Shown piece by piece: positions 24,463 to 55,008 of a DNA stretch of 64,000 nucleotides (positions within the stretch are counted from its first letter, which is position 1; every line of letters begins with the position of its first letter). The translations under genes were made by a program, and so were the position numbers. The DNA lies in NCBI RefSeq assembly GCF_003688415.1, contig NZ_REFJ01000002.1, positions 62,001 through 126,000 of the forward strand, written 5' to 3'. The DNA is from Umboniibacter marinipuniceus (GTDB lineage: Bacteria > Pseudomonadota > Gammaproteobacteria > Pseudomonadales > DSM-25080). The notes under the pieces were generated by a model. It was not told where the DNA came from and ran no database searches. It saw only the letters and a program-made list of their open reading frames with translations.

Positions 24463-24499
24463 AAAAAAAGGCCAATCGATTAGTCGATTGGCCTTTTTT
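24463..24499. terminator. Bidirectional terminator
   Basis: GGCCAATCGA / TCGATTGGCC stem with TTAG loop, flanked by seven A on the left and six T on the right. It can terminate both the PuuR-like gene and the convergent glutamine synthetase gene. Confidence 0.92.
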
Positions 24500-24521: not shown

Positions 24522-25883
24522 TTAGGCGTGACGAAGATACCAGTCGTACTCTTGCATAGTGATGAACTCGTGGAACTTCTGGCGTTCCGCGAGTTTAATC
24601 TGTAAGAAGACATGACAGAATTCGCTACCGAGTACCTGGGGCAATAACTTCGCTTCTTCGAAACTTTGTATTGCTGCGTCCCACGTTAGTGGTAACGTTG
24701 GCTCGAATTCCTTATAGGCGTTGACTTGGGTTACGGGACCTGGCTCAAGTTGTTGCGTGATGCCCAGATAAATACCCGACAATAAACTTGCAAGGTAAAT
24801 GTAAGGGTTGGCGTCAGCACCTGCAACACGGCACTCTACGCGCTTTGCTGCATCAGGACCGGCCGGAATTCTCATTGCTACCGTGCGGTTGTTGAATCCC
24901 CAACTTGGATGCAGAGGTGTGTAGCATTCCGGGCTAAACCTACGGTAGCTATTGGCGCCGGGAGCTGCGAGTAACATGCCTTCTTCCATCGTGGCTGAGA
25001 GACCGCCAATGGCATGGCGAAGGGTGTCGTTACCTAAGTCTTCTCCGTTAGCAAACACATTGTTGCCGGCCTCGTCATAGAGGCTGATGTGCATGTGGAA
25101 ACCGTTGCCAGACAGGTCCGCAAAAGGCTTCGGCATGAAGGTTGCATCGAAGTCATGCTGAAGCGCTACGGCTTTAATGAGTCGTTTTAGTTCTATCGCG
25201 TGATTACAGGCCTGAATCAAGTCATCACTGTGATGCAAGTTGATCTCAAACTGGCCAGGCGCGTATTCCGCAATAGCGGTATCGGCAGGAATGTTTTGCG
25301 CGACCGCGGCGGCTTTTACGTCGCGCAGGAACGCCGCATAATCATCAAGTTCAGCGATACCGTAAACTTGCGTGTTCTTATCACGCGCGCCAGTAACTGG
25401 TGAAATAGGTGGTAACGGGCGCCCGTCTTCATCACGTTGGCGATCAAGTAAGAAGAACTCTAGCTCCGGCGCGATAATAGGCTTCAGTTTTAATTCTTTA
25501 AACTTATCAATCACGTTCTGCAGTACGCCATGCGAAGTATAGCGGAGGGCTTCTCCGTCTTCGTCAACCATGTACGCAAGCACTTGAGCCGAAGGTTCAT
25601 GCGCCCAAGGGACAATCTTTAGCGAGTTAGCGACGGGTAGGCAAGGGCAGTCAATGTCACCCGTGCGAATACCTAAACCGGTGCCATCAGTGGTGTCACC
25701 TTCAATGTCGCTCGCAAACGTAGAGCGGGGCATCAGGATGCCGGACTTATATAATTTGGTGATGGCATTACGATCCAGACGTTTGCCACGGAGAATGCCG
25801 TTAAGATCAACTAGAATGACATCAAACTGATTAACGTCAGGGTTCGCCTCAAGAAAGGCATTTAATTCAGGTAACAATTGCAT
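24522..25883 (-). CDS. Glutamine synthetase family protein, PuuA-like (gamma-glutamylputrescine synthetase type)
   Basis: A 453-residue ATP-dependent ligase of the GlnA superfamily. Visible parts: N-terminal FDVILVDLNGILRGKRL, PELEFFLLDR (metal glutamates), GNGFHMHISLYD, and the phosphate-binding FNNRTVAMRIPAGPDAAKRV-type segment with RVECRVAGADANPY. The length and motifs suit PuuA, which glutamylates putrescine, rather than GlnA. The PuuR-like regulator gene is convergent next to it. No aldehyde dehydrogenase, oxidase or hydrolase of the Puu pathway is in the window. Confidence 0.88.
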   Translation of the reverse strand: MQLLPELNAFLEANPDVNQFDVILVDLNGILRGKRLDRNAITKLYKSGILMPRSTFASDIEGDTTDGTGLGIRTGDIDCPCLPVANSLKIVPWAHEPSAQVLAYMVDEDGEALRYTSHGVLQNVIDKFKELKLKPIIAPELEFFLLDRQRDEDGRPLPPISPVTGARDKNTQVYGIAELDDYAAFLRDVKAAAVAQNIPADTAIAEYAPGQFEINLHHSDDLIQACNHAIELKRLIKAVALQHDFDATFMPKPFADLSGNGFHMHISLYDEAGNNVFANGEDLGNDTLRHAIGGLSATMEEGMLLAAPGANSYRRFSPECYTPLHPSWGFNNRTVAMRIPAGPDAAKRVECRVAGADANPYIYLASLLSGIYLGITQQLEPGPVTQVNAYKEFEPTLPLTWDAAIQSFEEAKLLPQVLGSEFCHVFLQIKLAERQKFHEFITMQEYDWYLRHA

Positions 25884-26068
25884 GATGAGCTATCGCCTAC
25901 TAAGTTTCATTATTTTATGGTCAGTACATTAACTGAGATGATCAGACTGTTCAATATTTAAAACACTGTTTGTGTGATACGCAACATCAATTTATGTTTT
26001 TGTACTAAATAAAATTCGCTTAGCTGGACGATGAGGTGACCGTGAAGTCACAAAAAATCGTACAAAGT

Positions 26069-26090
26069 AATTCAAACGGTCGTTTGAATT
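26069..26090. promoter_or_regulatory. Perfect 22-bp palindrome upstream of fadBA, PsrA-like operator
   Basis: Arms AATTCAAACG and CGTTTGAATT around GT, with no mismatch, 72 bases before the fadB start. The core CAAAC-N4-GTTTG agrees with the (G/C)AAAC-N2-4-GTTT(G/C) pattern known for PsrA, the TetR-type repressor of fadBA in Pseudomonas. Confidence 0.75.
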
Positions 26091-26161
26091 ATATAGACTG
26101 ATGCGACAATCACCGCTGAGAAGTAGTTTTCTATGGCGATAATAATGAGGGATAAGTAGGT

Positions 26162-28303
26162 ATGTATAAAGGTAATACGCTAACCGTAAGCGCTATTGAA
26201 CCGGGCCTCTACGAGCTTTGTTTCGATAATCAATCCGACTCCGTCAACAAGTTCGACGCTGCAACGATTAAGGAATTAGCCGAGGCAGGTGCGCTGCTTA
26301 AAGACTCCGATGCGAAAGGCCTACTGGTAACCAGTGGGAAGCCGGTCTTCGTGGTTGGTGCAGACATCACCGAATTTAAGGGCAATTTTGCACTTGATGA
26401 TGAGGCCTTCACTGCCAATCTTAATGGCGCTAATGCCTGCTTCAATCAAATTGAAGATCTACCTATGCCAACCGTTTGTGCGATCAACGGTTTCGCACTG
26501 GGTGGTGGTTTAGAAATTACGCTAGCCTGTGACTTCCGAGTCATGAGTACAGCCGCGAAGGTCGGCTTGCCGGAGACCAAGCTAGGGATCTTCCCAGGAT
26601 TTGGTGGTACCGTGCGTATGCCGCGTCTTGTTGGTGCGGATAATGCCATTGAGTGGATTGCTGGCGGCAAGGAATATCGCGCTGATGTCGCACTGGCTAC
26701 CGGTGTGGTTGATGCCGCCGTTGCGCCAGATGATCTACGCGAAGCAAGTTTGAATCTGTTGAAGCAGGCTGTTTCGGGCGACATCGCTTACCAGGGGCGT
26801 CGCGAGCAGAAGAAGGCGCCGTTGCAGCTAAACGATATTGAAATGCTTATGTCTTTCTTTACCTGCAAGGCAATGGTTCAGCAGCAAGCTGGTCGAAATT
26901 ACCCATCGCCGGTGGCGGCGATCGAGGCTATGGAGCAGAGTGCTAAGCTTGGTCGTGATGATGCGCTTAAGCTGGAAACTCAGCACTTTATTCGCATGGC
27001 TCGTACCTTCCAGTCTAAAGCCCTCATTGGTATTTTCCTCAACGACCAGTTGGTAAGTAAGAAGGCGAAGACCATCGCCAAAGGCGCGGCCGATGTCAAG
27101 AAGGCCGCCGTTTTAGGAGCTGGTATCATGGGTGGCGGCATTGCGTATCAGTCGGCCTTAAAGGGTACGCCTATCGTGATGAAGGATATTAACCAAGCTG
27201 GCATTGACCTCGGCCTTGCCGAAGCAAGCAAGCTGCTTTCGAAGCGCGTGAAGCGCGGTAGAATGACGGCTGATAAGATGGCTGAAGTTCTCAGTCGTAT
27301 CAATCCTGCGCTGAGCTATGAAGAGCTGAGTGACGTGGATATGATCGTTGAGGCTGTGGTTGAAAACCCGAAGGTTAAGCACGCTGTTCTCAAGGAAGTT
27401 GAGTCGAAAGTGGCTGCCGATACCATTATTACCTCCAATACTTCAACGATTTCCATTGACTACTTGGCGGAAGCGCTTGAGCGCCCAGAAAACTTCTGTG
27501 GCATGCACTTCTTTAACCCAGTGCCACTCATGCCGTTAGTTGAAGTTATTCGTGGTACGAAGACTTCCGATACCGCGGTGGCGAAGACCGTGGCCTACGC
27601 CAATGCATTAGGCAAGAAGGCGATTGTTGTTAACGATTGCCCTGGGTTCTTTGTGAATCGCGTGTTGTTCCCTTACTTCGGTGGCTTTGCGCTGCTTCTC
27701 CGTGACGGTGCTGATTTCGCAGCCGTTGATAAAGTCATGGAGCGCTGGGGGTGGCCAATGGGTCCAGCCTACTTGAGTGATGTAGTTGGGTTGGATACGG
27801 CTGCGCACGCAGCTGACGTGCTTGAGGCGGGATTCCCTGATCGTATGGCTCAGTTTGAGGGTTTGGCGACTAACGTGCTATTTAAAGCGGGTCGTTACGG
27901 ACAGAAGAATGGTAAAGGCTTCTACAACTACGAGGCGGATAAGCGCGGCAAAGTTCAAAAAGTTGCGACGAGCGAAAGCTATGAGTTGATTGCACCACAC
28001 TGTGCCGACCGAACCGAGTTTGAAGCGGACGATGTGGTAGCCCGTATGATGGTACCAATGGTAATCGAAGTTCAGCGTTGCTTGGAAGAAGGTATTATCG
28101 CCTCAGCAGCTGAAGCAGATTTAGCGCTGGTTTACGGTGTTGGTTTCCCTCCTTTCCGCGGCGGTGTTTTCCGTTACGTTGATGAGATGGGTATGGCTAA
28201 CTTTGTGGCAATGGCGGACTCGCTGAAGCACCTTGGTGCATCGTACGAAGTTACAGACAAAATGCGCGAAATGGCCGCCAATGGCGAGTCGTACTACGGA
28301 TAA
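26162..28303 (+). CDS. fadB: Fatty acid oxidation complex subunit alpha
   Basis: A 713-residue multifunctional enzyme of fatty-acid beta-oxidation. The N-terminal ~190 residues are enoyl-CoA hydratase (INGFALGGGLEITLACDFRV, LPETKLGIFPGFGG with both catalytic glutamates). From about residue 315 is 3-hydroxyacyl-CoA dehydrogenase with NAD site VLGAGIMGGGIAYQSA and catalytic GMHFFNPVPLMPLVEVI. Length agrees with proteobacterial FadB (715-730). It is the first gene of fadBA, 15 bases before fadA. A PsrA-like palindrome upstream suggests induction by long-chain acyl-CoA. Confidence 0.97.
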   Translation: MYKGNTLTVSAIEPGLYELCFDNQSDSVNKFDAATIKELAEAGALLKDSDAKGLLVTSGKPVFVVGADITEFKGNFALDDEAFTANLNGANACFNQIEDLPMPTVCAINGFALGGGLEITLACDFRVMSTAAKVGLPETKLGIFPGFGGTVRMPRLVGADNAIEWIAGGKEYRADVALATGVVDAAVAPDDLREASLNLLKQAVSGDIAYQGRREQKKAPLQLNDIEMLMSFFTCKAMVQQQAGRNYPSPVAAIEAMEQSAKLGRDDALKLETQHFIRMARTFQSKALIGIFLNDQLVSKKAKTIAKGAADVKKAAVLGAGIMGGGIAYQSALKGTPIVMKDINQAGIDLGLAEASKLLSKRVKRGRMTADKMAEVLSRINPALSYEELSDVDMIVEAVVENPKVKHAVLKEVESKVAADTIITSNTSTISIDYLAEALERPENFCGMHFFNPVPLMPLVEVIRGTKTSDTAVAKTVAYANALGKKAIVVNDCPGFFVNRVLFPYFGGFALLLRDGADFAAVDKVMERWGWPMGPAYLSDVVGLDTAAHAADVLEAGFPDRMAQFEGLATNVLFKAGRYGQKNGKGFYNYEADKRGKVQKVATSESYELIAPHCADRTEFEADDVVARMMVPMVIEVQRCLEEGIIASAAEADLALVYGVGFPPFRGGVFRYVDEMGMANFVAMADSLKHLGASYEVTDKMREMAANGESYYG

Positions 28304-29494
<1,191 letters not shown>

Positions 29495-43336: not shown

Positions 43337-43368
43337 AAAAAAAGCGGACTAAATGGTCCGCTTTTTTT
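43337..43368. terminator. Bidirectional terminator between dnaQ and nhaB
   Basis: GCGGAC-TAAATG-GTCCGC flanked by seven A on the left and seven T on the right. The genes are convergent, so it can serve both. Confidence 0.92.
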
Positions 43369-49676: not shown

Positions 49677-49730
49677 TTTAGCAGTAACAAAAAAAGGAGT
49701 CAATTGGCTCCTTTTTTTGTTACTGCTAAA
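49677..49730. terminator. 54-bp near-perfect palindrome, bidirectional terminator
   Basis: Two 27-base arms without a loop and with one mismatch (a G-U in RNA). Within it, AGGAG and CTCCT are flanked by A7 and T7, so it works as a terminator in both directions. Outer parts TTTAGCAGTAAC and GTTACTGCTAAA extend it far beyond a normal terminator. Confidence 0.92.
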
Positions 49731-54973: not shown

Positions 54974-55008
54974 AAAAAGGCCCAATATCTTCATATTGGG
55001 CCTTTTTT
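54974..55008. terminator. Bidirectional terminator between nfuA and DAHP synthase gene
   Basis: GGCCCAATAT-CTTC-ATATTGGGCC, flanked by five A and six T, giving a fifteen-pair stem in RNA. Confidence 0.94.

Follow-up and report, generated by a model that had tools for sequence, protein, structure and literature searches.

A predicted PsrA operator upstream of fadBA and a candidate three-operon PsrA regulon in Umboniibacter marinipuniceus

This study addressed the question of which regulator, if any, acts on the long palindrome that lies upstream of the fadBA genes of Umboniibacter marinipuniceus. An earlier note on this DNA had read the palindrome as a PsrA-type operator and had predicted a PsrA orthologue in the genome. 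The window, that is, the whole stretch of 64,000 nucleotides that was analysed, and the contig that carries it contain the following features:

24522-25883, minus strand: gene with a glutamine-synthetase catalytic domain (domain match), on the other side of the operator
26069..26090, no strand assigned: candidate PsrA-type operator, AATTCAAACG-GT-CGTTTGAATT, with the core CAAAC-N4-GTTTG at 26073-26086
26090..26099, plus strand: possible -10 region of fadB, TATATAGACT; weak, touching the operator and conserved in the congener G002
26162..28303, plus strand: fadB, fatty acid oxidation complex alpha subunit, 713 aa (NCBIfam FadB model TIGR02437, 1108.6 bits, cut-off 933.55)
28319..29494, plus strand: fadA, acetyl-CoA C-acyltransferase (NCBIfam TIGR02445, 668.2 bits, cut-off 591)
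C2:202200-202829: psrA, a TetR gene, about 114 kb from fadB

The palindrome and its surroundings

The sequence at 26069-26090 is AATTCAAACGGTCGTTTGAATT. Its arms of 10 bases each, AATTCAAACG and CGTTTGAATT, match perfectly as an inverted repeat around a central GT that does not pair; when the outer pair T 26068/A 26091 is counted, the arms extend to 11 bp. The palindrome, which the earlier note had described as perfect over 22 bp, is thus real, with 20 of 22 self-complementary positions. Its core is CAAAC-GGTC-GTTTG, at the claimed place before fadB (26073-26086), and fits the palindrome criterion C/GAAAC-N2-4-GTTTG/C. The operator is located upstream of fadB as stated, at a distance of 71 bases from its end to the ATG at 26162 rather than 72. 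The identification of the downstream genes as fadBA was borne out by the scores of both proteins, which exceed the NCBIfam cut-offs, and fadA starts 15 bases past the end of fadB.

The promoter of fadB is less clear than those of psrA and of the acyl-CoA dehydrogenase gene described below. The element TATATAGACT, which adjoins the operator at 26090-26099, is a possible but weak candidate for the -10 region, and it was not reported by the sigma-70 consensus scan; any exact placement of the fadB promoter is tentative.

With regard to the frequency of the motif, the exact core CAAACN4GTTTG occurs once in the window, against 0.08 expected in shuffles (it appeared in 8 of 100), and 11 times in the whole genome (2,689,440 bases in 16 contigs, 99.42% complete), where the reversed pattern, used as a control, has 2. 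With (C/G)AAACN4GTTT(C/G), the looser form in the literature, the genome shows no enrichment (18 sites vs 18 for the control), and this form was for that reason rejected as sole evidence. The long form, TTCAAACN4GTTTGAA, occurs exactly three times in the genome, against 0.012 expected from the base composition of the window, and the three sites precede fadB, psrA and an acyl-CoA dehydrogenase gene. When up to three mismatches are allowed, the long form gives 171 sites vs 137 for the control. The short core alone is not convincing, whereas the long arms together with the gene context are. Six of the remaining eight core sites fall within open reading frames, a seventh is situated between the 3' ends of two genes that converge, and the eighth is just 5' of a gene that, from the look of its sequence, we take to be pilin-like. 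Exact long arms are missing from all eight, and they were dropped as regulon members.

Several further repeats are present in the window. A second inverted repeat before fadB, GTGACC-N4-AGTCAC at 26036-26051, has the counterpart GTGACC-N4-GGTCAC in G002, with the arms kept and the spacer altered, and GTGAC-N6-GTCAC was found only in these two genomes among 30 fadB upstream regions. It is possibly the site of a second regulator. Its membership in the regulon is unsupported (6 sites in the genome vs 4 for the control, at up to one mismatch), and CRP was set aside as its binder on the basis of half-site spacing, the half-sites being, as we assume, two bases wider apart than in the CRP consensus. 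A sequence AAAC-N3-GTTTG at about 25960-25974, also conserved in G002, is intergenic, lies nearer the divergent glutamine-synthetase-like gene and falls inside the published N2-4 spacing range. Longer inverted repeats, with arms of 13 to at least 15 bases, are found at 24464-24499, 43337-43368, 49685-49722 and 54974-55007, and are perhaps terminators.

The regulator and its predicted targets

The PsrA orthologue predicted in the earlier note was found. The protein encoded at C2:202200-202829 matches TetR_N with 55.7 bits (cut-off 24) and TetR_C_30 with 51.7 bits (cut-off 26.3), and it is the genome's only match to TetR_C_30, which we take to be the PsrA-type C-terminal domain; a search for a PsrA-type TetR gene thus yields a homologue. 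Its best match in the PDB is 2fbq (3.3e-38, 134.7 bits; the runner-up reached 40.5 bits), whose record is titled 'probable transcriptional regulator' and which presumably represents PsrA (PA3006) of P. aeruginosa. Next to it, on the opposite strand, is a divergent lexA (LexA 236.7 bits, cut-off 110.95), the two having one intergenic region in common, and an hpt-like gene (Pribosyltran) comes after psrA. The nearest named PsrA matches point to the Gammaproteobacteria as the group of the organism. Between psrA and lexA lies the site AATTCAAACGTATGTTTGAATT, whose 18-base motif stops 19 bases short of the psrA ATG.

The protein scored 184.3 bits against the NCBIfam PsrA model NF053516, under its equivalog cut-off of 300. 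The name of this model points to Vibrio. Among six named psrA loci used as a control, those of Vibrio (330.8) and Shewanella (307.6) passed, whereas those of P. chlororaphis (216.9), Microbulbifer (207.9), Vreelandella (237.2) and Aliikangiella (288.3) did not. Because four of six named psrA loci also fail, we judged the cut-off too narrow; it is taken to be narrower than the PsrA group as used in the literature and was not treated as defining.

The occurrence of the same motif near other lipid genes, a check proposed in the earlier note, gave psrA itself and the acyl-CoA dehydrogenase gene. The latter encodes 600 aa, as assigned by Pfam domains, and has the exact long site 63 bases upstream. 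It is followed by a second, related gene, with 45-46% identity between the two types; neither gene passed any NCBIfam cut-off. Before the acyl-CoA dehydrogenase gene, two PsrA-type palindromes overlap, 13 bases apart, and a TTGACA box precedes TATGTT by 17 bases (L031:4826-4870, G000:C1). Similar layouts were seen before acyl-CoA dehydrogenase homologues in G001, G002, G004 (L121) and G007 (L127).

A wider regulon including fadD and fadL was rejected. The best upstream score was 10/14 for six AMP-binding and two FadL-type (PF03349) matches, with start codons guessed by script, and the gene whose best NCBIfam match, over a partial stretch, is a long-chain acyl-CoA ligase likewise had an upstream site of at most 10/14. 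By the criterion of an exact long motif, the predicted regulon comprises three operons: fadBA, psrA and the acyl-CoA dehydrogenase gene. Weaker sites outside this criterion may have been missed.

The sites are conserved within the genus. All three are present in the congener G002, in which the fadB site, AATTCAAACAGGTGTTTGAATT, has identical arms and a different spacer near much-changed stretches. Two of them, those of psrA and the acyl-CoA dehydrogenase gene, are also present in the congener G001, whose fadB was matched only in its 3' part, at a contig end. Among 56 genomes, PsrA was called at more than 100 bits in 25, including that of U. marinipuniceus, and the best-scoring fadB loci were taken from 30. 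A fadB site, scored as at least 12/14 within 350 bases upstream, was found in 14 of 18 PsrA-bearing genomes vs 1 of 12 others (Fisher P = 2.4e-4, with shared ancestry ignored), and shuffles predict 0.06 such sites over all 30 loci. The exceptions are G013 (81% complete), which has a 12/14 fadB site and in which PsrA was not detected, and the four PsrA-bearing genomes without a good fadB site (G027, G030, G036 and G044).

A site upstream of psrA was observed for 19 of 25 orthologues, the other six scoring below 12, vs none of five more distant TetR genes, again ignoring shared ancestry. AAACN4GTTT lies upstream of psrA in 20 of the 25, and a lexA match was found inside the fetched psrA flanks in 14 of the 25. 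In the 25 PsrA-bearing genomes, TTYRAACN4GTTYRAA occurs 56 times vs 7 for the control (kinship ignored); in the 31 genomes without detected PsrA, 17 times vs 11. Beyond these relatives, we considered named psrA loci (the best 80 of 583, with Pseudomonas well represented among them): AAACN4GTTT is located within 300 bases upstream in 78 of these best 80, and lexA is divergent in 61 of them.

The site itself, the orthologous regulator, the second site at psrA, a third target, the conservation in the genus and the co-occurrence of site and regulator are all read directly from the sequences. All traits of a PsrA operator that are open to sequence analysis here are present in the site. On these grounds, the palindrome is very probably the operator of a PsrA orthologue that would repress fadBA, its own gene and the acyl-CoA dehydrogenase gene, and that would be released by a long-chain fatty acid or the corresponding CoA ester. 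PsrA binding, repression and a long-chain ligand at fadBA are assigned by analogy with Pseudomonas; the release by ligand is based on P. aeruginosa, in which fadBA5 is repressed by PsrA according to PMC5722320. A PsrA dimer would sit on the two CAAAC half-sites before fadBA and shut RNA polymerase out of the promoter, keeping beta-oxidation low, until such a ligand frees the operator. The motif would likewise allow PsrA to repress psrA and the acyl-CoA dehydrogenase gene.

It is improbable that the palindrome belongs instead to a different TetR-type regulator with a similar motif. The genome has nine TetR_N matches above the cut-off, and the domain search does not say which of these proteins binds the operator. 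Nevertheless, the same long motif precedes the PsrA-type gene itself, the fadB site tracks the PsrA gene across relatives, and no other TetR gene has an exact TTCAAACN4GTTTGAA, because all three exact sites are accounted for. At G000:C4:251586-252380, two TetR_N matches lie within one open frame of 418 aa, an apparent double TetR protein.

Probable overlap of operator and promoter

At the psrA and acyl-CoA dehydrogenase genes of U. marinipuniceus, TTGACG or TTGACA is located 17 bases before TATGTT, which lies inside AAACGTATGTTT. The arrangement was scanned in 110 upstream regions, comprising those of the named psrA loci (best 80 of 583) and of 30 TetR loci of relatives. AAAC(A/G)TA(T/A)GTTT was present in 55 of the 110, and in 52 of them a -35 box with at least 5/6 matches lies at 17 or 18 bases, vs 2% of random positions. 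A third half-site 13 bases away was found in 47 of the 80 named psrA loci (best 80 of 583) and at the acyl-CoA dehydrogenase gene; only this third half-site count was used, because the +13 offset of second sites is partly motif self-similarity. The acyl-CoA dehydrogenase operator also holds a 26-mer common to 23 of the named loci (best 80 of 583).

The conserved spacer of the psrA-type sites is best read as part of a -10 box that would be covered by the bound dimer. At the psrA and acyl-CoA dehydrogenase promoters, this overlap suggests repression by blocking RNA polymerase. Operator and promoter probably form one element, in which the spacer GTAT overlaps a -10 box, TATGTT, set 17-18 bases downstream of TTGACA. 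A third half-site, at a distance of 13 bases, would create two overlapping palindromes with room for two dimers; this 26-base module would be common to psrA of many Pseudomonas and to the acyl-CoA dehydrogenase gene studied here. In P. putida, the PsrA site lies within the -18 to +20 interval of the psrA promoter (PMC13104628), consistent with the overlap, which is thus partly published. For Smlt2053 of S. maltophilia, termed a PsrA orthologue, PMC10304680 describes two such promoter repeats and a second gel-shift complex.

At the psrA and acyl-CoA dehydrogenase genes, the position of the site over an apparent -10 box is that of a repressor, and PsrA represses fadBA5 in P. aeruginosa (PMC5722320). 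Both observations make it very unlikely that PsrA acts at the fadBA site as an activator and not as a repressor, even though it is described as an activator of rpoS in PMC13104628, which also treats A. vinelandii. A chance or structural repeat with no regulatory role, for which the chance-level frequency of the short published motif and a few other inverted repeats in the window with arms of at least 10 bases might be quoted, can hardly be entertained against three exact long sites (0.012 expected) before three fitting genes and the conservation of the arms in G002 while the spacer changed.

Relation to known systems

Repression by PsrA is the preferred reading. From one palindrome, a regulator at a distance of about 114 kb was predicted, together with its probable autoregulation and one further target, and the overlap with the -10 box offers a reason for spacer conservation at the psrA and acyl-CoA dehydrogenase promoters. 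FadR was rejected as the regulator, as the genome has no FadR_C match, whereas the E. coli control genome gives one. Kazakov et al. 2009, cited in PMC5343134, is reportedly a study of fatty-acid regulons.

FadR of E. coli, a member of the GntR family, likewise controls fatty-acid degradation genes, according to PMC5343134. For P. aeruginosa, the control of fadBA by PsrA has already been published, and fatty-acid degradation has been predicted to be under PsrA in many Gammaproteobacteria. According to PMC5722320 and PMC13104628, the PsrA/fadBA5 system of P. aeruginosa resembles the present one in its TetR-family regulator beside a divergent lexA, in its operator (C/GAAAC-N4-GTTTG/C) and in its targets, which include psrA, fadBA and acyl-CoA dehydrogenase. 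The half-sites found here are CAAAC with longer arms (AATTCAAAC), whereas the psrA site of P. aeruginosa is GAAACN4GTTTC according to PMC13104628. The system predicted here also differs in the hpt-like gene after psrA.

As in the present genome, fatty-acid degradation is placed under PsrA in the gammaproteobacterial regulons described in PMC5343134 and, for Shewanella, PMC3223726. The predicted regulons of the former cover 76 genomes in 12 taxa with 673 sites, and autoregulation is their usual core feature. They average 11.1 genes per genome, against three operons here, without fadD or fadL. To these predictions, the 2.7 Mb genome of U. marinipuniceus adds one small candidate PsrA regulon, comprising fadBA, psrA and the acyl-CoA dehydrogenase gene.
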